Positions 22,146 through 59,793 of a DNA stretch of 64,000 bases are shown here, in pieces; the first letter of the stretch is position 1; every line of letters starts with the position of its first letter. The stretch is from NCBI RefSeq assembly GCF_000526515.1, contig NZ_JAGF01000001.1, positions 2,046,001 to 2,110,000 on the forward strand. Direction: 5' to 3'. The position numbers were made by a program, and so were the translations under genes. This DNA comes from Cellulomonas sp. KRMCY2 (GTDB taxonomy: Bacteria; Actinomycetota; Actinomycetes; Actinomycetales; Cellulomonadaceae). The notes below the pieces were generated by a model. It had not been told where the DNA came from, made no database searches, and was given only the letters and a program-made list of their open reading frames with translations.

Positions 22146-23792
22146 ATGCCGACGCCCGGAGCCGTTCCCGCCACGATGGGCAAGCGTCTGCTGGCCTACG
22201 TCATCGACATGGTCGCCTTCGTGATCCTCGGTGGTGGCTTCGTCGTCGCGGGGATGCTCCCGCTGATCCGGTCGATGCAGGACCCGTCGGGCGTGCCCGT
22301 GGTCAGCGTCTCGCCGATCCTCGGCGTCGGCTACGTGATCCTGCTCGGCTTCGGGGTCTTCCAGTGGTGGTTCCTGGGCACCCGCGGCTTCACCGTCGGG
22401 AAGAAGCTCGTCGGGCTGCGAGCGTTGTGCGCGCGGACCGGGCAGCCGGTCGGCATGGGCCGGGCGTTCCTGCGGCTGCTCGTCCCGGCCGCCGGGTCGC
22501 TGGTCGTCGTCGGGCAGGCGCTGGTGTACGTCTCGCCGTTCTTCGACTCCAGCGGTCGGCGGCAGGGGTGGCACGACAAGGTCGCCGGCACCATGGTGTT
22601 CGACACGACCGTCGGCCGGGACCCGGCGACGGCCGGCCCCGGCGTGGGCGCACCCGAGGCCGTCCGGCGTCTGGACGGCCTGCTGCAGAGCCCGTCCGAC
22701 AGCGGGCCGCCGGCCCCGCCTGCGCCGCCGGCCCCGCCTGCACCGCCGGTGCCGGCGCCCCTGCTGGTCCTCGGGCCGACGTTCCCGCCCGTTCCCCCGG
22801 CCGCACCAGCGCCGTGGATGGACCGGCCGGCCGTGCCGGCACAGCCGGTCCCTCGGGTCGGCCCCGTGGGTTCCGACCTCGGCCTGCCACCGGTCCCGGC
22901 TCCGCCGGCCCCGCCTGCACCGCCGGTGCCGGCGCCCCTGCTGGTCCTCGGGCCGACGTTCCCGCCCGTTCCCCCGGCCGCACCAGCGCCGTGGATGGAC
23001 CGGCCGGCCGTGCCGGCACAGCCGGTCCCTCGGGTCGGCCCCGTGGGTTCCGACCTCGGCCTGCCACCGGTCCCGGCTCCGCCGGCCCCCGAGCCCGTCG
23101 TGAGCCGGGAGGCTCCGCGGGTATCGGAGTCCGTGCCGGACAGCGAGCACGCCCAGGCGTCGGACACCGCGCCGACACCTGGGTCCGCCTCGGCACCCGA
23201 GCGCGCCCTGCCCGCGGATGCCGCCCTGGCGAGCGCCCCGACGCGCGGCGCCCGGCACGCAGCCGGGGGCGGCATCATCTCCTCGGTCCCGCGACCACTG
23301 CTCGCGAGCGGCCTCGACGAGCCCGTCGTACCGAGGGCCGCGCCCGCGCCGGCGCCCGCACCCGCGTTCAAGGAGCTCGACGACGACGTCGAGATGACCC
23401 GGATGTCGTCGGCCTCGCGGCGCGCTGTCGAGGAGATCCCGCACGGTGCCCGAGCGGTGCCGTGCGCGACGCTGCTGCTCTGGGACGACCGCAGGGTGTT
23501 CCTCGAGGGCACCGCCCTGATCGGCCGCAACCCCACGCCCCGGCCGGGTGAGCGCACCCCGGACCAGGTCATCGTCGTCGCAGACCGGGCCAAGTCCGTC
23601 TCCAAGACGCACCTGGCGATCGGGGTGGACGCCGACGGCGTCTGGCTGCACGACCGCAACTCCACCAACGGCACGATCGTGACCCTGGCCGACGGGCAGC
23701 AGATCCTGTGCGCGCCCGAGCAGCAGGTGCGCGTGCCGGCCGGTGCTGCCGTGGCCTTCGGGGACTACTGGCTGACGGTGCTCGAGGCCTGA
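22146..23792 (+). CDS. RDD membrane domain - FHA fusion protein with an internal 59-residue duplication
   Basis: This 548-residue protein begins with an RDD domain (about 10-160, MGKRLLAYVIDMVAF, RRQGWHDKVAG). A Pro/Ala-rich linker contains two exact copies of a 59-residue segment, and a C-terminal FHA domain follows (about 435-548, IGRNPTPRPGE, SVSKTHLAIG, NSTNGTIV). It is a paralogue of 11869-13473 but lacks the zinc ribbon. FHA domains read phosphothreonine, suggesting kinase-dependent control of the ESX machine. The 3' end overlaps the convergent rarD gene by 28 bases. ATG 22146 is used; an in-frame ATG at 22176 is possible. Confidence 0.9.
   Translation: MPTPGAVPATMGKRLLAYVIDMVAFVILGGGFVVAGMLPLIRSMQDPSGVPVVSVSPILGVGYVILLGFGVFQWWFLGTRGFTVGKKLVGLRALCARTGQPVGMGRAFLRLLVPAAGSLVVVGQALVYVSPFFDSSGRRQGWHDKVAGTMVFDTTVGRDPATAGPGVGAPEAVRRLDGLLQSPSDSGPPAPPAPPAPPAPPVPAPLLVLGPTFPPVPPAAPAPWMDRPAVPAQPVPRVGPVGSDLGLPPVPAPPAPPAPPVPAPLLVLGPTFPPVPPAAPAPWMDRPAVPAQPVPRVGPVGSDLGLPPVPAPPAPEPVVSREAPRVSESVPDSEHAQASDTAPTPGSASAPERALPADAALASAPTRGARHAAGGGIISSVPRPLLASGLDEPVVPRAAPAPAPAPAFKELDDDVEMTRMSSASRRAVEEIPHGARAVPCATLLLWDDRRVFLEGTALIGRNPTPRPGERTPDQVIVVADRAKSVSKTHLAIGVDADGVWLHDRNSTNGTIVTLADGQQILCAPEQQVRVPAGAAVAFGDYWLTVLEA
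22724..23078 (+). repeat. Perfect tandem duplication, 177-bp unit
   Basis: Two head-to-tail copies of a 177-bp segment lie in frame in the linker of the RDD-FHA gene. They are offset by exactly 177 bases, and I see no differences between the copies (for example GCCGGCGCCC at 22751 and 22928). The absence of synonymous change indicates a recent duplication. Confidence 0.92.
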
Positions 23793-50229: not shown

Positions 50230-50661
50230 ATGCCTCCCAAGAAGAAGGTCAGCGGCCTCATCAAGCTGCAGATCAAGGCCGGCGCTGCCACGCCGGCGCC
50301 GCCGATCGGCCCTGCCCTGGGCCAGCACGGCGTCAACATCATGGAGTTCTGCAAGGCGTACAACGCCGCGACCGAGTCGCAGCGCGGGGACGTCATCCCG
50401 GTGGAGATCACGGTCTACGAGGACCGTTCCTTCACCTTCATCACCAAGACCCCGCCGGCAGCCGAGCTGATCAAGAAGGCCGCCGGCGTCGCCAAGGGCT
50501 CGCCGACCCCGCACACCGTCAAGGTCGCGACCCTGACGGCCGCGCAGGTCCGCGAGATCGCCCAGGTGAAGCTCGAGGACCTCAACGCCAACGACCTCGA
50601 CGCCGCGTCGAAGATCGTCGCCGGCACCGCCCGGTCGATGGGCATCACGGTCAAGGGCTGA
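50230..50661 (+). CDS. rplK: 50S ribosomal protein L11
   Basis: This 143-residue protein has the L11 signature [19 protein letters not shown] and a Pro-rich linker. It forms the GTPase-associated centre with 23S rRNA and is the site of thiostrepton action. AAGGACC precedes the ATG. Confidence 0.98.
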
Positions 50662-50728
50662 GCACGACCCAGCAGCACCCGTACGCCCAGCACGACCCAG
50701 CACGACCCAGCACGACCCAGCAGCACCC
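50661..50728. repeat. 10-base repeats between rplK and rplA
   Basis: AGCACGACCC occurs at 50661, 50689, 50699 and 50709, with variants AGCAGCACCC at 50671 and 50719. This is unusual in a ribosomal operon spacer. Confidence 0.85.
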
Positions 50729-50785
50729 AGTGGCAGGGCCATGTGCGGCCCGACGACCACGACTGCCGACCAAGGAGAAGAGCAG

Positions 50786-51508
50786 ATGGCACAGCACAGC
50801 AAGGCGTATCGCGCCGCGAACGAGAAGATCGACCGGGAGCGTCTCTACGCGCCCCTCGAGGCCGTCCGACTGGCCCAGGCCACGTCGTCGACCACGTACG
50901 ACGCGACGGTCGAGGTGGCCTTCCGCCTCGGGGTCGACCCCCGCAAGGCGGACCAGATGGTCCGGGGCACCGTCAACCTGCCGCACGGCACCGGCAAGAC
51001 CGCACGGGTCCTGGTCTTCGCCACCGGTGAGCGCGCCGAGCAGGCTCGCGCCGCGGGTGCCGACGAGGTCGGTGGCGACGAGCTGATCGAGAAGGTGGCC
51101 GCCGGGTACACCGACTTCGACTCGGCCGTCGCCACGCCGGACATGATGGGCAAGGTCGGTCGCCTCGGAAAGGTGTTGGGTCCGCGCGGGCTCATGCCGA
51201 ACCCGAAGACCGGCACGGTCACGATGGACGTCGCCAAGGCCGTCGCCGAGATCAAGGGCGGCAAGATCGAGTTCCGGGTCGACAAGCACTCGAACCTGCA
51301 CTTCATCATCGGCAAGACGACCTTCACCGACATCCAGCTGGTCGAGAACTACGCCGCGGCGCTCGACGAGGTCCTGCGCCTCAAGCCCGCGTCGTCCAAG
51401 GGCCGCTACATCACCAAGGCCTTCGTCGCCACGACGATGGGCCCGAGCATCCCGGTCGACCAGAACAAGACGCGCAACCTGACCGAGGACGAGACCGACG
51501 CCGGCTGA
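50786..51508 (+). CDS. rplA: 50S ribosomal protein L1
   Basis: This 240-residue protein has the L1 pattern, including [15 protein letters not shown] and [11 protein letters not shown]. It forms the L1 stalk and usually autoregulates the L11 operon. AAGGAG precedes the ATG. A strong hairpin follows (51525-51557), ending the operon before the sigma/CHAT insertion. Confidence 0.98.
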
Positions 51509-51524
51509 CGTCCCTCTGTCGCAC

Positions 51525-51557
51525 CAGGCCCGGTCCCCCGTGCGGGGGCCGGGCCTG
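51525..51557 (+). terminator. Terminator after rplA
   Basis: CAGGCCCGG-CCCCCG pairs with CGGGGG-CCGGGCCTG around a TG loop, with one bulged T. It is a very stable hairpin 17 bases after the rplA stop. Confidence 0.85.
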
Positions 51558-51628
51558 CGGCATTCCCCGGCACGATCGTCGATCGAGCTCCCCGTCCCCG
51601 GACGGTCACAGATCGGTGCCACCGCGCT

Positions 51629-51656
51629 CCTGAGGTCCTGAGGTCGACATCTCAGG
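51629..51656. promoter_or_regulatory. Repeated CCTGAGGT elements upstream of the sigma factor gene
   Basis: CCTGAGGT occurs twice in tandem (51629-51636, 51637-51644) and CTCAGG in inverted form at 51651-51656, about 140 bases before the sigma factor ATG. It may be an operator or an autoregulated promoter region. Confidence 0.4.
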
Positions 51657-51793
51657 TGCGGCGCCCGGACGGCAGCGCTCCGGGTTGCGTCGCTCAGCCG
51701 GACGAGGAGGGGCGCGATGGCGAGGGTGGTTGTGGGCCGGCGACACGCGGCCGTACGCTCGGATCTCCCCAGGACCGGGAAGGGCTCCGATCG

Positions 51794-52429
51794 ATGAACC
51801 GGACTGCGGACGGGACGACCGGCGACATCGACGTCGCCCCTGCGACGCTCAGTGGTCGCGCCTCGGTGGCCCTGGCGGCCTACCGCGCCGGGCGGACCGA
51901 CCTGCTCGCCGACCTCGTGCGCGAGGCGACGCCTCTGCTGTGGCACATCGTCCGGTCCCAGGGCGTCGAACGCGACGAGGCCGAGGACGTCGTCCAGGGG
52001 ATCTGGCTCGCGCTCGTCCGGAACGCCGAGTCGATCCGGGACCCCGACGCCGTCCTGAAGTGGCTCGTGGTCAGCGCGCGGCGGGCAGCCTGGCAGGCGA
52101 CGCGACATCGCCGGGAGCACGACCGACGGACGACCGAGCTGCCCGATGCGGAGCTGTCGCCGGCCAGGGAGCTTCGGTCGACGGACCCGCCGCCGGACGA
52201 GCCGGTGCTCCGTGACGAGCGGGACCGGGTGCTCTGGCGCCGGTTCCGCGACCTCCCGGAACGGTGTCAGCAGATCCTGCGCTTCGTCGCGATCGCCGAC
52301 CGTCCCGACTACAAGGCCATCGCGGAGGCCACCGGGGTCCGGGTCACGGCCGTGGGCGTCACCCGCGGCCGGTGCCTCGCGAAGCTGCGCACCTTGCTCG
52401 ACCGCGACGAAGGGTGGGCCGACGCATGA
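51794..52429 (+). CDS. ECF-type sigma-70 family factor
   Basis: This 211-residue sigma factor has region 2 (about 48-105, DEAEDVVQGIWLALVRNAESI, WLVVSARRAAWQ) and region 4 (about 150-205, LPERCQQILRF, KAIAEATGVRVTAVGVTRGR). Region 3 is absent, as in ECF factors. A linker of 40 residues, rich in Arg/Glu/Asp, joins the two. The ATG follows GAAGGG. It overlaps the next gene by ATGA, the usual pattern for a sigma/anti-sigma pair. It begins a five-gene module inserted between rplA and rplJ and is likely the transcriptional output of that module (inference). Confidence 0.92.
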   Translation: MNRTADGTTGDIDVAPATLSGRASVALAAYRAGRTDLLADLVREATPLLWHIVRSQGVERDEAEDVVQGIWLALVRNAESIRDPDAVLKWLVVSARRAAWQATRHRREHDRRTTELPDAELSPARELRSTDPPPDEPVLRDERDRVLWRRFRDLPERCQQILRFVAIADRPDYKAIAEATGVRVTAVGVTRGRCLAKLRTLLDRDEGWADA

Positions 52430-52929
52430 CCGAGTACCCCGAGAACGAGCCCATGACGTCGTCGGACCACGCCGTGCTGGCCGACCTCGCCCGCCTCGTC
52501 AGCGCAGCGGACCCGGTGCCGGACGGCCTCGTCGAGCGCAGCCTCTTCGCGCTGACGCTCGAGGGTCTGCACGCCGAGCTCATGGAGCTGCGCCGGGTCG
52601 AGACGCCCGCTCTGGCACTGCGCGGGGAGAGCGACTGGACGGGGACGGCGTCGGTCGAGACCCGGACGATCACCTTCAGCACCGACTCGGTGACCGTGCT
52701 CATCTCGCTCTCGGCGGGGCCGGGCGGCGGTGTCCGCATCGACGGCTGGAGCGCACCGGCCACGACCTTCGTGGTCGAGCTCTACCGGCCGGACGGCTGC
52801 GTCGGCACCCGGTCGGACGCCGACGGACGGTTCTCGCTGCCCGACGTCGCACCCGGGCCGGCGAGTCTGGTCCTGCGGCGTCTGGACGGCGAGGGACACG
52901 CCGTGAGCACGCCCGTCATCGACCTGTGA
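52426..52929 (+). CDS. Small cytoplasmic protein coupled to the sigma factor; possible anti-sigma or regulatory partner
   Basis: This 167-residue protein has no membrane helix or signal peptide. The N-terminus (about 15-60, LADLARLVSAADPVPDGLVERSLFAL) is helical, and the C-terminal half is beta-rich and ends in a carboxypeptidase-regulatory-like segment (VVELYRPDG, SDADGRFSLPDV, PASLVLRRLDG). Its ATG overlaps the sigma factor stop, suggesting equimolar production as with anti-sigma factors. There is no zinc-binding HxxxCxxC motif. It could be the proteolytic target of the downstream CHAT or S8 protease; this is inference. Confidence 0.7.
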   Translation: MTEYPENEPMTSSDHAVLADLARLVSAADPVPDGLVERSLFALTLEGLHAELMELRRVETPALALRGESDWTGTASVETRTITFSTDSVTVLISLSAGPGGGVRIDGWSAPATTFVVELYRPDGCVGTRSDADGRFSLPDVAPGPASLVLRRLDGEGHAVSTPVIDL

Positions 52930-52967
52930 CCACCGTTGTCCGCAGCCTTGCCTGAGAAGAGGAGCCG

Positions 52968-54803
52968 ATGAGTCAGGACGCAGAGCAGGTGCCGGACCGG
53001 GGCGCGGAGCAGAAGCCCGGAGCGCTCCGGGACGAAGGGCCGGCGGCTCTCGCCTGGCGCGTCCGCACCCTGAACCCGCTGACCGCGGTCCGGCGTGCCG
53101 GCGTGCGGCCCCCAGAACCGACGACGTACGTCGGTGACCGCATCCTGGTCCGCGGCATCACGGCCGACCGTGCGCCGGAGATGTCCGACGTGGCTCAGGC
53201 GGCGGCCGCGCGCGGCTGGTCCGTCACGGTTGAGCCTGGTGACCTGGCCGACCTCGCCCTGCTGCGTCGGGCCGACCTCGGGGACCGCGTCCAGACGGTG
53301 CTCGAGGACATGTCAGGGTTCGGCCTGCGCATCGAGCCGGCCGTGGGATCCGTGACGCCGCCTCCCGATGCATGGGAGCTGGTCGAGGCGCTCGGCGGCC
53401 GCTCGGCGGTTGCCGGGGCGGTGCTGAGCCTCGACCACGTCCTGGTCGCCACCGGTGGACCCGCGATCGGCGGTGCGCCCTACACCGAGTCGCACCCGTA
53501 CACCGAGTCGCACCCGTACACCGAGTCGCACCCGTACACCGAGTCGCACCCGTACACCGAGTCGCACCCGTACACCGAGTCGCACCCGTACACCGAGTCG
53601 CACCCGTACACCGAGTCGCACCCGTACACCGAGTCGCACCCGTACACCGAGTCGCACCCGGCTGCTCCGCTGTCGGAGTACGCCTCGCCCGGACGGGGCG
53701 GCCGGGCCCCGGTGACCTGGGTCGGACCGGCGCCCGCCAGGAGGTATGAGCGGGGCGCGTCGATCGATCGGACCGCGAAAGGGCTCCGGCGCCCGGTGGT
53801 TGCGGTGCTGGACACCGGCACCGGCAAGCACCCGTGGCTCGGGGCCGCCGTGGTCGAGCGTGACCCGCGGGTGCTCGGGGAGCCGATCGGCCTGTACCCG
53901 CCGGCCGAGCCGGCCGTCCGGGACGCGGAGGTCGGTGGCATGTCGCTGGCGCCACTGACGGGTGGTCTCGACCCGGCTGCCGGCCATGGGACCTTCATCG
54001 CGGGCCTCGTGCACCAGGGCTGCCCGGACGCCGTCGTCCTGTCCTGCCGACTGTACGGCGGCGAAGGCATCGTCCCGGAGTGGGACCTGCTGCGGTCCCT
54101 TCGCCGTCTGCTGCTCTTCCACATCCTCGGGCTGCTGGGTCGTGCCGACCACCACCCCGTCGACATCCTCAACCTCTCCCTCGGCTACTACCACGAGCGC
54201 CCCGAGGATGTGGCCTTCGACGAGCCTCTGGCGCACTGCCTCGCCGCCCTGCGCCGGCACGGGGTGGCGGTCGTCGCGGCGGCCGGCAACCACGCCGTCG
54301 AGCGCCCGATGTTCCCGGCCGCGTTCGCGCCCGCGCTCGACCGGACCGTCGAGCCGCCGAAGCCCCTTGACCCCGGGGCGCTGAGCCTCGAGGAGCCACC
54401 GGTCCTCACGGTCGGTGCCCTCAACCCGGACGGCACGACGGCCCTGTTCAGCAACGACGGAGCGTGGGTCACGTGCCGGCGTCCCGGTGCCGCGCTGGTG
54501 AGCACCTTCCCGACGACCTTCGGCGGCGCGCAGACCTCCTCGCGGGCTCTGCCGGGCAGCGCGACGGGGGAGGACCGGGCGACGATCGACCCCGACTCCT
54601 TCGGCGGGGGCTTCGGGGTGTGGAGCGGAACGTCCTTCGCCGCGCCGGTGTTCGCCGGTGAGCTCGCCGCCACCCTGCTCGCGCAGCGGGAGACAGGTGC
54701 AGACTCGGGCGAGGGCGCCTCGTGGGAGGACACGCTGACGTCGCGGTGCAAGCGCACCTGGGAGGCCATCACGACGACGACGGGTCTCAGGCCCGGCTCG
54801 TGA
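52968..54803 (+). CDS. Cytoplasmic-type subtilisin-like protease with ten YTESHP repeats
   Basis: This 611-residue S8 protease has no signal peptide. The N-terminal domain (about 1-170) is of unknown type. Residues 172-231 are ten perfect copies of YTESHP. The subtilase domain carries Asp282 (VAVLDTG), His340 (AGHGTFIAG), Asn441 (AAAGN) and Ser556 (SGTSFAAPVF), so it should be active. Most bacterial subtilases are exported; lack of a signal sequence suggests an intracellular role in this module. The repeat sits between the N-terminal domain and the protease, a likely processing linker. Confidence 0.9.
   Translation: MSQDAEQVPDRGAEQKPGALRDEGPAALAWRVRTLNPLTAVRRAGVRPPEPTTYVGDRILVRGITADRAPEMSDVAQAAAARGWSVTVEPGDLADLALLRRADLGDRVQTVLEDMSGFGLRIEPAVGSVTPPPDAWELVEALGGRSAVAGAVLSLDHVLVATGGPAIGGAPYTESHPYTESHPYTESHPYTESHPYTESHPYTESHPYTESHPYTESHPYTESHPYTESHPAAPLSEYASPGRGGRAPVTWVGPAPARRYERGASIDRTAKGLRRPVVAVLDTGTGKHPWLGAAVVERDPRVLGEPIGLYPPAEPAVRDAEVGGMSLAPLTGGLDPAAGHGTFIAGLVHQGCPDAVVLSCRLYGGEGIVPEWDLLRSLRRLLLFHILGLLGRADHHPVDILNLSLGYYHERPEDVAFDEPLAHCLAALRRHGVAVVAAAGNHAVERPMFPAAFAPALDRTVEPPKPLDPGALSLEEPPVLTVGALNPDGTTALFSNDGAWVTCRRPGAALVSTFPTTFGGAQTSSRALPGSATGEDRATIDPDSFGGGFGVWSGTSFAAPVFAGELAATLLAQRETGADSGEGASWEDTLTSRCKRTWEAITTTTGLRPGS
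53481..53660 (+). repeat. Ten perfect tandem copies of an 18-bp unit
   Basis: TACACCGAGTCGCACCCG is repeated ten times without a single base difference over 180 bp and encodes (YTESHP)10. The lack of synonymous variation indicates recent expansion or active homogenisation. Copy number can change in frame by slippage. Confidence 0.99.
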
Positions 54804-54852
54804 CCGGCGCGCCGGCGCCGTGGTTCGCGGGCGGGCCCGACGGAGTCGGCCG

Positions 54853-57489
54853 ATGATCGCCGTGGGCGGGCTCGAGGCCGCCCGCCAGGAGCTCGACGCC
54901 GGGCTCGTGCACAACGCGCGCGGCTACCCTGGCCGGGCGGCCTCGAGCTTCCGTGCAGCGCTGCGCCGCCTCGGTCCCGAGCCGGGCTCCGGCGACCCGG
55001 CCGACCCTGAGACGGCGTACGTGCGCGCCCGCGCCCTGCTCGGACTGGTCACCAGCAGCTTCGAGCTGCGCGGGGATGTCGAGGCCAGCAACGCGATCCT
55101 CGACACCGCCGACCGGTGGGCCCGAGCGGCGGGGGCCCGTGCTGTCGAGGTCGCGATCCTCGGGCAGCGGGGACTGCTCCGGATGCGCGCCGGGCAGCCA
55201 GAGGCCGCTCTGCGTGAGCTCGACCGTGCGGCCGCACGTCTCGACGACGCCGAGCCGGTCGACGCGTGCCGCATCCTGTTGAACCGCGGGACCCTGCACC
55301 TCGAGCACGGTCGGCGCCTCAAGGCGCGGGCGGACCTCGAGGCGTGCGCCAGGCGGGCGGAGTCGATCGGCAACCACCTGCTGCTGCACAAGGCCCGCCA
55401 CAACCTCGGGTACCTCGAGTTCCTCTCGGGGGACCTGCCTGCAGCGCTGTCTGCGATGGCGGAGGCCGCGCGGATCGAGCACGGGGCCTCGCCGGCGATG
55501 ACCCTCCTGGACCGGGCCCGGGTGCTGGTCGAGGCCGGTCTGACGACCGAGGCGGACATCAGCCTCGGCAGGGCAGGGGAGCTGTTCGCCGCCAACCGGC
55601 TCCCGCACGACCTCGCCGAGGTCCTGCTCGCCAGGGCGCACTGCGCGCTCCTCGCGCGACGCCCGAAGGACGCCCTGCGCTGGGCGCGCTCGGCCCGCAG
55701 TACCTTCCTGCGGCGGCGCAACCAGCCGTGGCTGGCGCGGGCCGACCTCACGGTCGTCCGCGCGCAGCTCGCTGTGCTCCTGGCGGCCGAGGCGCCATCG
55801 ACCGCGACACTCCGCAGGGTCGCGGCGCAGGCGACCGCGCTGAGCGCGCGCGCGCGGACCAGCGGGGGCGCAGCCGGCCGCGAGCTCGCGCGGCTCGCGC
55901 TGGTCACGGCCGCGGAGGCCGCGGCAGCCGGCGGCCTCCGTCGGCAGGCGCACGCAGCGCTCGGTTCGGCCGGGAGGCTGACCGGGCGGGAGCCGTTGGC
56001 TCTCGCCGTCCAGGTGCGCCTCGTCAAGGCCCAGCTGGCTTTCGCCGAGCACGACACGCTGCGGGCACGGCGGTACGTCCGGGCCGGCCAGGCCGTCCTG
56101 GCCGAGCACCGGCGGCAGCTCGGCTCGGTGGAGGCCGTGGCGGCGGCCGCCGTGCACGGTGACCACCTCACCGAGGCCGATGTCGGGGCCGCGCTCGCCG
56201 ATGCCGACCCGGCAGCGGTCCTCGATGCCGTCGAGCGGGGTCGCGCGACCTTCGCCGGGCCGGCGCGCGTGCGGCCTCCGGACGACCCGGTCCTCGCCGA
56301 GGTGCTTGCCGAGCTCCGGCAGTGCGTCGAGCGGGTTCGGCTCCTCCCGCCAGATGCCGACCCGACCGCGACCGCGAAGCGCGAGAGTCTGCGACGTGAC
56401 GCCGCCCGCCTGCGCGCCGCCGCGCGCGAGCGGTCGTGGCAGCTCGGTGACGGCGTCGGTGCGCCGAGGGCGATGAGCGCCCACGACCTGGTGGCGACCG
56501 TGCGGAGCGGTGCCGCCGAGGGCGACCCGGCCACCGTCGTCGACTACGTCGTGCACCGGGGTCGCGTGCACGCCGTCGTCGCCGACCCATCGGGGCTGCG
56601 CCTGCTGAACCTCGCGGACGCTGCCGAGGTCGACGAGCTCGCCCGGCGGCTGCGGGCCGACCTTCAGGTGCTGGCGAACCCGATCCTCGCGCCGGCCCTG
56701 CGCGACGTGGCGTCCCGGACCTTGGCTCGCGGGCTGGCGCACCTGGACAACCTTCTCCTGGCCCCCGTCGGCTGCGCGGGGTGCCTGCACGTGGTCGCGG
56801 GTGGTGGGATGGTCACGCTGCCGTGGGGGATGGCCCCCTCGCGGAAGGGCCTCGCCACCAGCGTCGGGACCCGGCTCGGGTCCGGGTCCGGTCACGAACG
56901 GCGGGCCGGCGTGGGTGTCGTCGCCGTCGCCGGACCGGGCCTGACCCACTCGCAGGACGAGGTGGCTGCCGTCGCCGGTGTCTGGTCGCGGGCCGCGAGC
57001 CTCGTGGGGGACGACGCCGTGTGCGCGGCAGCCGCCGACGCCCTGCGGACGGCCGGCGTCGTGCACCTCGCGGTGCACGGGCACCACGAGGCCGAGAACC
57101 CGTTGTTCTCGTGGGTCCGGCTCGCCGACGGACCCCTGTTCGCGCACGAGCTCGAGGGGTCGTCGCTCCCGGGCTCGCTGGTCGTCCTGTCCGCCTGCGA
57201 GGTGGGGCGCGCGACCGTCCGACCCGGCGGCGAGGTCCTCGGGCTCGCGAGCGTCCTGCTCCGCCTCGGCGCCGGAGCCGTGGTCGCCGCGCTCGCGCCG
57301 CTGCGCGACGACGTCGCTGAGGCCGTCATGCCGACGATGCACCGGAGCCTCCGGGACGGCCTACCGCCGCCGGCGGCGCTCGCCGCGGCCTGCTCGAGCA
57401 TCGACGAACCTGTCCCGCTCTCCTGCTTCGCCTCGGCGCCGGGTGTCATCCTGGACGGGGCCCTGTTCGGCGGCGACCCGCCTCGCTAG
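54853..57489 (+). CDS. Helical-repeat CHAT-domain (caspase-like) protease
   Basis: This 878-residue protein has a long N-terminal region of Ala/Leu/Arg-rich helical repeats (about 1-450, TPR-like), a linker, and a C-terminal CHAT domain (about 560-878). The catalytic pair is intact: His742 in LAVHGHH and Cys782 in VLSACEVGRA. CHAT proteases are related to caspases and separases; in type III-E CRISPR systems a TPR-CHAT protease cleaves a sigma-factor inhibitor. Here it follows a sigma factor, a small partner and an S8 protease. ATG 54853 is used, with GGAG upstream. It converges on a second subtilase gene with a 15-base gap. Confidence 0.9.
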   Translation: MIAVGGLEAARQELDAGLVHNARGYPGRAASSFRAALRRLGPEPGSGDPADPETAYVRARALLGLVTSSFELRGDVEASNAILDTADRWARAAGARAVEVAILGQRGLLRMRAGQPEAALRELDRAAARLDDAEPVDACRILLNRGTLHLEHGRRLKARADLEACARRAESIGNHLLLHKARHNLGYLEFLSGDLPAALSAMAEAARIEHGASPAMTLLDRARVLVEAGLTTEADISLGRAGELFAANRLPHDLAEVLLARAHCALLARRPKDALRWARSARSTFLRRRNQPWLARADLTVVRAQLAVLLAAEAPSTATLRRVAAQATALSARARTSGGAAGRELARLALVTAAEAAAAGGLRRQAHAALGSAGRLTGREPLALAVQVRLVKAQLAFAEHDTLRARRYVRAGQAVLAEHRRQLGSVEAVAAAAVHGDHLTEADVGAALADADPAAVLDAVERGRATFAGPARVRPPDDPVLAEVLAELRQCVERVRLLPPDADPTATAKRESLRRDAARLRAAARERSWQLGDGVGAPRAMSAHDLVATVRSGAAEGDPATVVDYVVHRGRVHAVVADPSGLRLLNLADAAEVDELARRLRADLQVLANPILAPALRDVASRTLARGLAHLDNLLLAPVGCAGCLHVVAGGGMVTLPWGMAPSRKGLATSVGTRLGSGSGHERRAGVGVVAVAGPGLTHSQDEVAAVAGVWSRAASLVGDDAVCAAAADALRTAGVVHLAVHGHHEAENPLFSWVRLADGPLFAHELEGSSLPGSLVVLSACEVGRATVRPGGEVLGLASVLLRLGAGAVVAALAPLRDDVAEAVMPTMHRSLRDGLPPPAALAAACSSIDEPVPLSCFASAPGVILDGALFGGDPPR

Positions 57490-57504
57490 TCTCGCGAGCC
57501 CCGG

Positions 57505-58275
57505 TCAGCCACGCCGTCGCAGGCCGGCCGACTGTGCCGCCCACGCGCCGGCGGCGAGAACGGCCGCAGGCGCGGAGCCCCGCAGTCGGACGGCTCGATC
57601 CGGTCCGGCGGCCGGGACGTCACGGCCAGGTGCGGCAAGGTCCGCCAGGGCGCTGGACTCCGGGAGCAGCCCGCTGTCGTCGTAGCCGGCCACGGCCAGC
57701 ACACCGGTCACGGACGCCGGGAAGGTGAGCACCTCCGGCCCCAGGTCGCCTGCGGAGACGAGCACGTGCACACCCCGGTCCACCGCGGTCCGCAGCGCGG
57801 TCGCGACGCCCCGAGCCAGACGCCGACGGCCGAACGGCAGGACCAGGATCTGAGCCCGTTCGGCGAGGGCCCAGCGGACCGCCCGCACGATCAGCTCGTC
57901 GGATGTCCGGCCGTCGGCGCCCAGCACCGGCGCCACGAGCAGCTCGGCCTCCGGGACGAGTCCCAGCACATGTGCCTTGCCCTGGCCGACGAGGAGCGAG
58001 GCGTGCGCAGTGGCCTGCCCGGCGGGAGAGGCCGGCCCTATCGGGCGGGCGCCCGGCTTGACCTGCAGGTGGGCGCCCCGAAGGTCGGGATGGGTGCCGT
58101 CGACCTCCCCGTCGAGCAGGGCGATCCGAACGCCCCGGCCCGTCGTCGGCGTCCTGGGTAGCTGCGCCACGGGCACCGGAAGATCGGGTACGGGCCTGGC
58201 CTGGAACCAGCGCTGGCAGGCCACGGCGACGTCGGGTGCTGCCGTGATCGTCTCGGTTCCCGTCGCTGCCACCAT
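57505..58275 (-). CDS. Short degenerate subtilase
   Basis: This 256-residue S8-like protein has no signal peptide. Asp55 is in ALLDGEVDGTHPDL, His91 in TAHASLLVG (the usual GHGT is lost), and Ser234 in RGSAPAAVLAAG (usual GTSFAAP). The oxyanion-hole Asn is replaced by Asp177 in SAGD. The triad is nominally present, but activity is doubtful; it may act as an inhibitor or binding decoy. It is transcribed toward the CHAT gene and diverges from the rplJ leader. Such small subtilase-like proteins near CHAT genes support a module, although I cannot name a family. Confidence 0.8.
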   Translation of the reverse strand: MVAATGTETITAAPDVAVACQRWFQARPVPDLPVPVAQLPRTPTTGRGVRIALLDGEVDGTHPDLRGAHLQVKPGARPIGPASPAGQATAHASLLVGQGKAHVLGLVPEAELLVAPVLGADGRTSDELIVRAVRWALAERAQILVLPFGRRRLARGVATALRTAVDRGVHVLVSAGDLGPEVLTFPASVTGVLAVAGYDDSGLLPESSALADLAAPGRDVPAAGPDRAVRLRGSAPAAVLAAGAWAAQSAGLRRRG

Positions 58276-58367
58276 GGCCCGTCTCCGACCGTGGACCCGC
58301 CGATCGGGTCCGTCGGTGAATCAGGAGCGTGGCCGGCGCTGTCTGTGACCGGCGAAGGGTCGGCGAT

Positions 58368-58396
58368 TTGGCTCCGGTCCCGGCCTCCCGTAGTCT
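58368..58396 (+). promoter_or_regulatory. Promoter for rplJ-rplL
   Basis: TTGGCT (58368-58373) and TAGTCT (58391-58396) are separated by exactly 17 bases, upstream of the L10 leader. Confidence 0.65.
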
Positions 58397-58401
58397 GTCC
58401 G

Positions 58402-58627
58402 TTGCCCAAGACCGCAGGTCGTCGGCTGCCTCGAAACCCCCGGGTGACGAGGTGGTGGACCGAAGTTCCGCAACGAGCGGGGACCAGCGCAGGTGAGTGA
58501 CTCAGAAGGATCGGCGCGCACGCGTGCGCATGGTCCGGCCAAGAGCCCCGCGCCTGCGCGGGGCTCTTCTCATTGTGTGGCCCTCGGTGCGTCCGACGAC
58601 AGCGGTACGACCACCGGAAGGATTGCC
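58402..58627 (+). ncRNA. Ribosomal protein L10 leader with attenuator
   Basis: The transcribed leader has the conserved AAGACCGCAGGT (58408-58419) found in L10(L12) leader elements, followed by paired segments and the hairpin at 58541-58568. L10 complexed with L7/L12 binds such leaders to repress its own operon. It occupies most of the 352-base gap between the subtilase gene and rplJ. Confidence 0.75.
58541..58568 (+). terminator. Attenuator hairpin in the L10 leader
   Basis: AAGAGCCCCGCGC pairs perfectly with GCGCGGGGCTCTT around a CT loop (13 bp), followed by a short T-containing tail. It lies within the leader, 59 bases before rplJ, so it is likely an attenuator and not an end-of-operon terminator. 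Confidence 0.8.
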
Positions 58628-59158
58628 ATGGCGAGGCCGGACAAGGCAGCCGCAGTCGCAGAGCTCACGGAGAACTTCCGCGAGTCGAGCGCTGTCGTGC
58701 TGACCGAGTACCGCGGGCTCACCGTCGCCCAGCTCAAGCAGCTGCGGCGCGCGCTCAGCGGCGACGCTACCTACGCCGTGGTGAAGAACACGCTCTCGGC
58801 CATCGCGGCCAAGCAGGCGGGTGTCGAGGGAATCGACGCCCATCTCGCCGGTCCCTCGGCCATCGCCTTCGTGACCGGTGACCCGGTCCAGGCAGCCAAG
58901 GGCCTGCGTGACTTCGCCAAGGCTCACCCGCAGCTCGTCATCAAGGGTGGTGTCCTCGACGGACGCGCCCTGACCGCTGCGGAGATCAACAAGCTCGCGG
59001 ACCTCGAGTCCCGCGAGGTCCTGCTGGCCAAGCTGGCCGGCGCAATGAAGGCGTCGCTCTTCGGGGCTGCGTACCTGTTCACCGCGCCCACGGCCAAGGC
59101 CGTGCGCACCATCGATGCCCTGCGCGAGAAGCGGGCGACCGAGGAGCAGGCGGCCTAG
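58628..59158 (+). CDS. rplJ: 50S ribosomal protein L10
   Basis: This 176-residue protein begins [17 protein letters not shown] and has [16 protein letters not shown], the L10 signature. It anchors L7/L12 dimers on the ribosome stalk. GGAAGGA precedes the ATG at 58628. It is cotranscribed with rplL and controlled by the leader upstream. Confidence 0.98.
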
Positions 59159-59677: not shown

Positions 59678-59711
59678 GCGAGGCCCGCACCTTCCGAGGT
59701 GCGGGCCTCGC
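59678..59711 (+). terminator. Terminator after rplL
   Basis: A perfect 15-bp stem (59678-59692 with 59697-59711) closes a TCCG tetraloop. It ends the rplJL operon 47 bases after the stop. Confidence 0.9.
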
Positions 59712-59770
59712 GCACACCCGGCTCGCGCACACCCGGCTCGCGCACACCCGGCTCGCGCACACCCGGCTCG
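59711..59770. repeat. Four perfect 15-bp tandem repeats
   Basis: CGCACACCCGGCTCG is repeated four times directly against the rplL terminator. Confidence 0.97.
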
Positions 59771-59793
59771 CCGCAGCGCCACCCTGCTCCGAG

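Follow-up and report, generated by a model that had tools for sequence, protein, structure and literature searches.

In Craspase, the type III-E CASP system of Csx29, Csx30 and CASP-sigma, the TPR-CHAT protease Csx29 cuts Csx30, an inhibitor of an extracytoplasmic function (ECF)-like sigma factor, and this cleavage has been proposed to relieve the sigma factor (PMC10028731, in excerpt, as are the other papers cited here). The same paper mentions anti-sigma systems of the RseA/DegS type, in which a protease frees the sigma factor. Conflict neighbourhoods of an EACC2-caspase hold a caspase-type protease with an ECF sigma factor and a TPR protein, and activation by autopeptidase activity with a possible sigma-mediated output has been proposed for them (PMC8195603). 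Multi-peptidase NTP-dependent conflict systems of one kind can use peptidases of different folds in place of one another (PMC7159879). We have analyzed a stretch of 64,000 nucleotides from Cellulomonas sp. KRMCY2 (the window), in which five genes lie between rplA and rplJ. These encode an ECF-type sigma factor (SIG), a small partner protein (PART), a subtilase (S8a), a TPR-CHAT protease and a second, converging subtilase (S8b). We conclude that SIG, PART, S8a and TPR-CHAT form a co-conserved actinobacterial module that is real and widespread, and we propose, with a probability of about 45%, that the window holds one copy of a widespread actinobacterial sigma switch that is gated by proteolysis and regulates itself.

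Like Craspase, the locus places a TPR-CHAT protease beside an ECF-like sigma factor and a candidate inhibitor of it. It differs in having no Cas7-11, CRISPR RNA or Csx30 among its five genes (the search for them covered these five genes), and in adding a serine protease that carries a peptide array; PART moreover matches no NCBIfam family. Our best reading is that the module would work like the output arm of Craspase in a cassette without CRISPR genes, and we claim no membership of that system. With the EACC2-caspase neighbourhoods it shares a caspase-type protease, an ECF sigma factor and a TPR gene, but no protein of the window has an EACC2 or TRADD-N Pfam match, and here CHAT is combined with a subtilase and PART. 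An apparent interchange of protease folds, described below, would be a feature in common with the multi-peptidase systems, whereas none of the five genes encodes an NTPase, and the term 'sigma factor' is absent from the main text of PMC7159879. The release of a sigma factor by proteolysis would be common to the module and RseA/DegS, but PART has no recognized anti-sigma domain, and the five genes include no second protease of that type.

The first-pass annotation of this DNA had treated all five genes as one unit, a view to be given up if their homologues did not keep together in other genomes. A first CHAT search found a match in 28 of 59 genomes, and a CHAT profile at E ≤ 1e-30 in 99 of the 296 genomes of the class, both counts including the genome of the window. 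We assembled 60 CHAT-anchored stretches, 53 from the class-wide list and seven from a search of genomes in which PART had been found without CHAT. Loci were picked by hand from the match lists, with high scores favoured, and a gene was scored as present on a profile match of >30 bits anywhere in the 5-19.5 kb fetched. A subtilase is present in 55 of these stretches, a trypsin-like protease in one, SIG with PART in 41, and all four genes in 37. PART itself has matches in 33 of the 396 phylum genomes searched, that of the window included, and the 32 stretches around the other matches contain SIG (28), CHAT (21) and a subtilase or trypsin (20). CHAT is missing from 11 of those 32, in ordinary-looking surroundings (four were checked against Pfam); ten of the genomes were searched further, and seven have a strong CHAT elsewhere (E below 1e-70), the other three weak matches only. 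In many family members the block sits between rplA and rplJ, whereas four loci (L056, L061, L062 and L039) have the four genes side by side in a stretch that contains neither rplA nor rplJ. Whether in the rplA-rplJ gap or elsewhere, SIG, PART, subtilase and CHAT thus remain associated, and the predicted co-conservation holds for these four. It does not extend to S8b, which among the loci examined is seen only in the genus of the window.

The gap between rplA and rplJ measures about 7.1 kb in the window. Among 11 relatives without CHAT in the first search it is ~0.34-0.39 kb in seven and ~0.8 and ~1.3 kb in two; in the remaining two, rplA lies outside the stretch fetched. The cassette thus occupies this site in some relatives and is missing from it in others. 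Together with the recurrence of the block in other genomes, this argues against a chance arrangement. Two loci (L055 and L059) have a tandem pair of CHAT genes within the gap.

The CHAT match of the window lies at about 56935-57396. Its catalytic residues His742 and Cys782 are invariant in 16 aligned sequences, that of the window included, and the numbering of Cys782 in the first-pass annotation agrees with an ATG start at 54853. The protein scores 22.1 bits against the Csx29 family NF041237, for which the cut-off is 300, and nine of the 16 CHATs match that family weakly. When the CHAT profile was compared with the PDB, the CHAT-domain matches among the best 60 of 97 were chains named 'CHAT domain protein' (8d9f, 8d9g, 7x8a, 7y83 and 8d9h; E 4e-5 to 9e-4), which we take to be the TPR-CHAT of Craspase. 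A PDB search with a single CHAT sequence gave nothing informative.

SIG meets ECF sigma-70 superfamily profiles above their cut-offs and aligns with 12 relatives. Scanned against Pfam and NCBIfam, PART has a sole match, to CarboxypepD_reg, below its cut-off. An AlphaFold model with a predicted local distance difference test score (pLDDT) of 78 predicts two long N-terminal helices (12-28 and 35-63), a poorly predicted linker (59-76) and a confident C-terminal beta-sandwich with strands between 80 and 152. A fold search (VIA) matched it to sandwiches, CBM56 and fibronectin-type domains among them, at Z no higher than 8.2, and the arrangement is a common one; a PDB sequence search and Foldseek were uninformative (best Foldseek E 0.023). 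We propose that PART is an anti-sigma factor, as its 4-bp overlap and co-conservation with SIG suggest.

S8a meets PF00082 above the cut-off, and D282, H340, N441 and S556 are invariant in eight sequences. Together with the conserved His and Cys of CHAT, this bears out the earlier statement that two protease active sites are intact. The predicted model of S8a is weak overall (pLDDT 55), with about 24-33 over a tandem hexapeptide array that lies within the protein. In a fold search (VIA) the best 17 matches align from residue 43-58 to the end, with Z 15.9-20.0 and a root-mean-square deviation of 4.1-5.6 over 259-295 residues, and they include PCSK9, pro-subtilisins, an entry for a lanthipeptide-toxin protease, and site-one protease. 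In this low-confidence model the predicted order is prodomain, array and catalytic domain, with the array in the linker of the zymogen; as in pro-subtilisin zymogens, the prodomain would stand ahead of the catalytic domain. A profile of the prodomain (S8N), itself built from module genes, has matches in 15 genomes out of 296. All 15 have CHAT no more than 6 kb away and 14 have an array, and the search brought up two array-bearing genes unseen before (units PLTRGN and NPFTRT). Assignment of the subtilases as type VII secretion system mycosins was rejected (TIGR03921 scores of 58.3 and 57.0 bits, where 278.75 would be required), as was assignment to PatA or QhpE, with scores far below cut-off.

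Tandem Repeats Finder (TRF) places the array of S8a at 53481-53660, with period 18 and ten copies at 100%. A degenerate PYTESH pattern has ten matches in the genome, all in S8a. Orthologues have other short repeats at the same position, after an LDHV-like motif and before EYxxPGxGGR, and an array is present in 31 of 39 module subtilases with S8N. We found 33 hexameric arrays with 29 distinct units, which read roughly P-[FYLM]-[TY]-x-[GPST]-[HN]. Position 1 is P in 28 of the 29; position 2 is F in 12, Y in seven, L in three and M in three (25 together); and position 6 is H or N in 23. The unit list was compiled by hand for hexamers, so that periods of 4, 7, 10, 11 and 13 are not represented in it; periods of 4, 7, 10 or 11 occur in a few arrays. 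In the 38 arrays that have at least three copies, 235 synonymous and 40 non-synonymous differences separate the copies, against 61.5:213.5 from a simple null, an excess that is somewhat inflated because array detection favours similar residues between copies. There is no non-synonymous difference in 29 of the arrays, and 29 of the 40 such differences come from three arrays of long period (L039, L133 and L188). The repeat of L185, an upstream repeat in L041 and duplicates identical in DNA were dropped. The unit is thus under strong constraint within arrays and differs between lineages. Loci L117 and L119 each carry two paralogous subtilases with two units; PFTSGG is found in both loci, and HPMYDG in one corresponds to HPLYDG in the other, one residue apart. 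As a separate observation, each of these loci also has two CHATs, two or three copies of PART and a single sigma gene. A module subtilase at L185:6539-8179 carries 8.8 copies of a DPDR repeat that is unlike the other arrays.

L049, L050 and L037 gave no S8a; instead, a candidate trypsin-fold protease is encoded upstream of the sigma gene in these loci, and in L116 both protease types are present. The trypsin-type proteins of these loci and of L133 and L188 match Nal1_C, NAL1_N, Trypsin_2 or Trypsin, in every case short of the curated cut-off, and GGDSG and NFH/NWH motifs are visible; it is on these grounds that we call them NAL1-like. Five of the six have an array, and the sixth is cut off by a contig end. 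The complete genes of L049 and L050 contain PFTE or QPFT repeats; in L133 and L188 the repeats are PHYQ and PYYQ and lie within the catalytic region. The units resemble those of subtilases in related lineages, with P[FY]T in the family of the window and Y-Q in two other families of the phylum, although the loci are few. In some loci a trypsin-like protease, likewise equipped with an array, thus appears to take the place of the subtilase.

The description of S8b as a degraded subtilase converging on the operon proved correct. The copy in the window keeps Asp and His, and the position of the catalytic Ser is changed, so that the triad is incomplete. Seven of nine aligned copies, read by eye, have lost at least one triad residue, and L044 and L060 keep all; other motifs of the fold are kept. 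This combination leads us to propose that S8b could be a pseudo-protease brake. S8b looks like a member of the regulon outside the core module. The sequence GTCACA-N16/17-CTC[CT] has 14 matches in 211,154 bp of ten loci (nine of the genus of the window, which is included, and L074 of a sister genus), five upstream of SIG and nine upstream of S8b, and the reversed pattern has none. All nine copies of S8b examined carry it, and three further sigma genes have a one-base variant. The S8b sites were found only after the motif had been read from the sigma upstream regions, by a scan at spacing 17. With a model built without the sites of the window, the SIG and S8b sites rank first and second in the window, at 14.5 and 11.8 bits. 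We read the two-block motif as the promoter of the sigma factor itself, as its placement suggests, although recognition by another regulator is possible. A different two-block motif, GTATC..CCCTC, precedes the sigma open reading frame (ORF) or coincides with its beginning in L049, L053, L054, L055, L059, L152 and L035, a sister clade, and is perhaps a promoter that diverged with its sigma factor.

The switch that we propose would operate as follows. The N-terminal helices of PART would bind the ECF sigma factor and keep it inactive. A trigger sensed by the TPR part would activate the TPR-CHAT protease. S8a would be made as a zymogen of prodomain, array and catalytic domain, and the array would be the element that matches and activates the protease within its own system, whether by offering cleavage sites in tandem or by serving as a multivalent docking tag. 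Once active, one or more of the proteases would cut PART and free the sigma factor, which would transcribe its own operon together with S8b; S8b, mostly triad-less, would then damp the protease as a decoy or inhibitor. In this scheme we infer the anti-sigma role of PART, the order of cleavage, the role of the array, the action of the sigma factor at the motif and the damping by S8b.

A number of observations weigh against this switch. A subtilase is accompanied by neither SIG nor PART in 17 of the 60 CHAT stretches, some of them near contig ends, and four of the 60 have SIG and PART with no recognized serine protease. L057 (7463-11710) has a version of the cassette that lacks the serine protease: SIG, PART and CHAT lie between rplA and rplJ, S8 gave no match, and no room was seen for a protease gene. 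These cases indicate that the parts can work apart. PART has no match to a known anti-sigma domain in Pfam, NCBIfam or PDB-sequence searches, and the fold search barely tests its helical part. Nor is the array essential, since eight of the 39 S8N subtilases lack one. Among 70 other subtilase matches, S8b copies included, only five, all counted as lacking S8N, have an array, and one of these (L046) is cut off by a contig end. PART and CHAT were considered as further carriers of the unit and rejected (0/22 and 0/24, with 1/22 for SIG). Repeats also occur in unrelated ORFs of the same stretches. In control subtilases outside the module, repeats of other kinds were seen in three of 28 (30 loci, with two module genes set aside and the longest ORF used where a profile match was lacking). 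As for the promoter, a k-mer search found GTCAC/CTCCT in six of 20 sigma upstream regions, where shuffles reach 4-6. Over all loci (2.28 Mb) spacing 17 gives 11 matches and spacing 19 gives 14, and the looser GTCAC-N17-CTCC has 32, of which 12 are upstream of SIG or S8b. In the 4.5-Mb genome the held-out model ranks the SIG site first, though weakly (E = 0.315); the S8b site is not listed, and at 11.8 bits it would fall behind some nine other positions. When the full promoter model is applied, positions elsewhere in the genome score 14.3 bits or less, several as high as the held-out score of the S8b site.

What the array does can be read in several ways. We consider it possible, and hold it tentatively, that it is a row of cleavage sites for its own serine protease, the zymogen cutting its own linker. 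The units read roughly [HN]-P-[FYLM]-[TY], with the counts at positions 1 and 2 given above. Suc-AAPF, with Pro at P2 and Phe at P1, is a substrate of subtilisin and of chymotrypsin, and the units, which resemble it, might be cut in the same way. The position in the linker between prodomain and catalytic domain of S8a fits such cleavage, which would also explain similar arrays on a subtilase and a trypsin-fold protease. However, the array comes after or inside the catalytic region in the trypsin-type proteins, the units PAYQGN and GYGDGV fit less well, and a single site would be enough for simple autoprocessing. Rather unlikely, in our estimate, is that the array serves as a multivalent docking tag, with the TPR domain of the CHAT protein from the same cassette as its reader; the tag would bring the protease to its activator, and unit and reader would co-evolve. 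A matched reader would be expected to leave mostly silent divergence within arrays and different units between lineages, as observed; the S8N type was seen only with CHAT (15/15), and the paralogous subtilases of L117 and L119 have two different units. Yet many subtilases adjoining these CHATs have no array, and the S8N profile was derived from module genes.

A more far-reaching version is less probable still, and we regard it as speculative: the array could be a code of self-identity, a lineage-specific peptide that is preserved nearly without change within each array. Proteins of the same system would read it, on proteases of unrelated fold, and it would choose the protease of the cascade, while the sigma factor would mainly transcribe its own cassette. 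The whole might then be a bistable switch, proteolytic and self-contained, with a pseudo-protease as its brake. Two further readings seem to us improbable. Tandem, homogeneous and lineage-specific peptides might be expected of a precursor from which short signalling peptides are cut out and released, in the manner of a pheromone or a ribosomally synthesized and post-translationally modified peptide, with the lineage-specific sequence giving specificity. No signal peptide was seen by eye, however, and no exporter or modifying enzyme is encoded among the five genes, and the array of S8a is at the zymogen junction. Equally hard to credit is a passive flexible linker expanded by slippage in genes that are merely neighbours. 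The near-identity of the array in the window at the DNA level (one synonymous difference) is what recent slippage would give, and there are repeats in other ORFs nearby. Against this, 235 of 275 differences between copies are synonymous and 29 arrays have no non-synonymous difference, even allowing for biased detection, and the genes are co-conserved across the phylum; we reject passive slippage as the whole story of the array.

The first-pass annotation had suggested a proteolytic cascade with a transcriptional output, possibly for defence or cell death. A proteolytic module with a transcriptional output is the reading that suggests itself for the co-conserved genes, and its transcriptional side is backed by the promoter-like motif common to the sigma operon and S8b. 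Defence or cell death finds no support in PADLOC scans. The CHAT of the window has no family there at E ≤ 0.001, with a few weak matches among its 15 relatives, and the module proteins have weak generic matches (subtilase, IetS and BovA), the subtilases meeting the generic subtilase and IetS models weakly. We found no paper describing the module among open-licence papers judged by their titles and the beginnings of their abstracts. If the proposal is true, a chromosomal CHAT in 99 of 296 genomes of the class would suggest a wide non-CRISPR counterpart of the Craspase output arm. The cassette would offer cultivable organisms in which to study TPR-CHAT control of a sigma factor, known from CRISPR-bound Craspase. 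Arrays that are constrained within a genome, vary from lineage to lineage and occur with two protease folds raise the questions of what reads the unit and why there are many copies.

The features of the locus are collected in Table 1. The five-gene layout with its overlap and spacings, as first annotated, is confirmed by the ORFs and by Pfam and NCBIfam matches. That annotation had missed the array of ten 18-bp copies inside S8a and the promoter-like motif common to SIG and S8b.

Table 1. Features of the rplA-rplJ cassette, in positions of the window
Feature	Position	Strand	Basis or remark
ECF-type sigma factor SIG	51794..52429	+	TIGR02937 68.8 bits (cut-off 42.9); Sigma70_r2 31.4 bits (cut-off 24)
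Small partner PART, 167 aa	52426..52929	+	4-bp overlap with SIG; proposed anti-sigma
Subtilase S8a	52968..54803	+	38-bp gap after PART; Peptidase_S8 PF00082 59.6 bits (cut-off 21.8), E 4e-16; proposed zymogen
S8N, prodomain-like region of S8a, about residues 43-160	53094..53447	+	Predicted model and prodomain profile
Tandem hexapeptide array, 10 x PYTESH, in the prodomain-catalytic linker of S8a	53478..53660	+	TRF
TPR-CHAT protease	54853..57489	+	49-bp gap after S8a; PF12770 78.5 bits (cut-off 24), E 8e-22
S8b, mostly triad-less subtilase, convergent with the operon	57505..58275	-	Peptidase_S8 PF00082 57.6 bits, E 2e-15
Promoter-like two-block site GTCACA..CTCC, 189 bp upstream of SIG	51605..51630	+	GTCAC-N17-CTCC match
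Promoter-like two-block site upstream of S8b, beginning 74 bp before the start codon	58324..58349	-	Pattern and held-out model

The flanks had been described as intact, with a terminator after rplKA and an L10 leader with its own promoter. No Rfam match to an L10 leader was obtained at the gathering score, and a consensus scan of 51400-58700 gave neither a sigma-70 promoter nor an intrinsic terminator. The absence of signal peptides from the five gene products, judged by eye only, agrees with the first description. Elsewhere in the window, the rplL-rpoB intergenic region has a 15-bp repeat of 4.3 perfect copies (59707-59771), the rplK-rplA interval has an imperfect 10/20-bp repeat (50661-50730), and a 177-bp unit is present in 2.1 perfect copies at 22725-23089.

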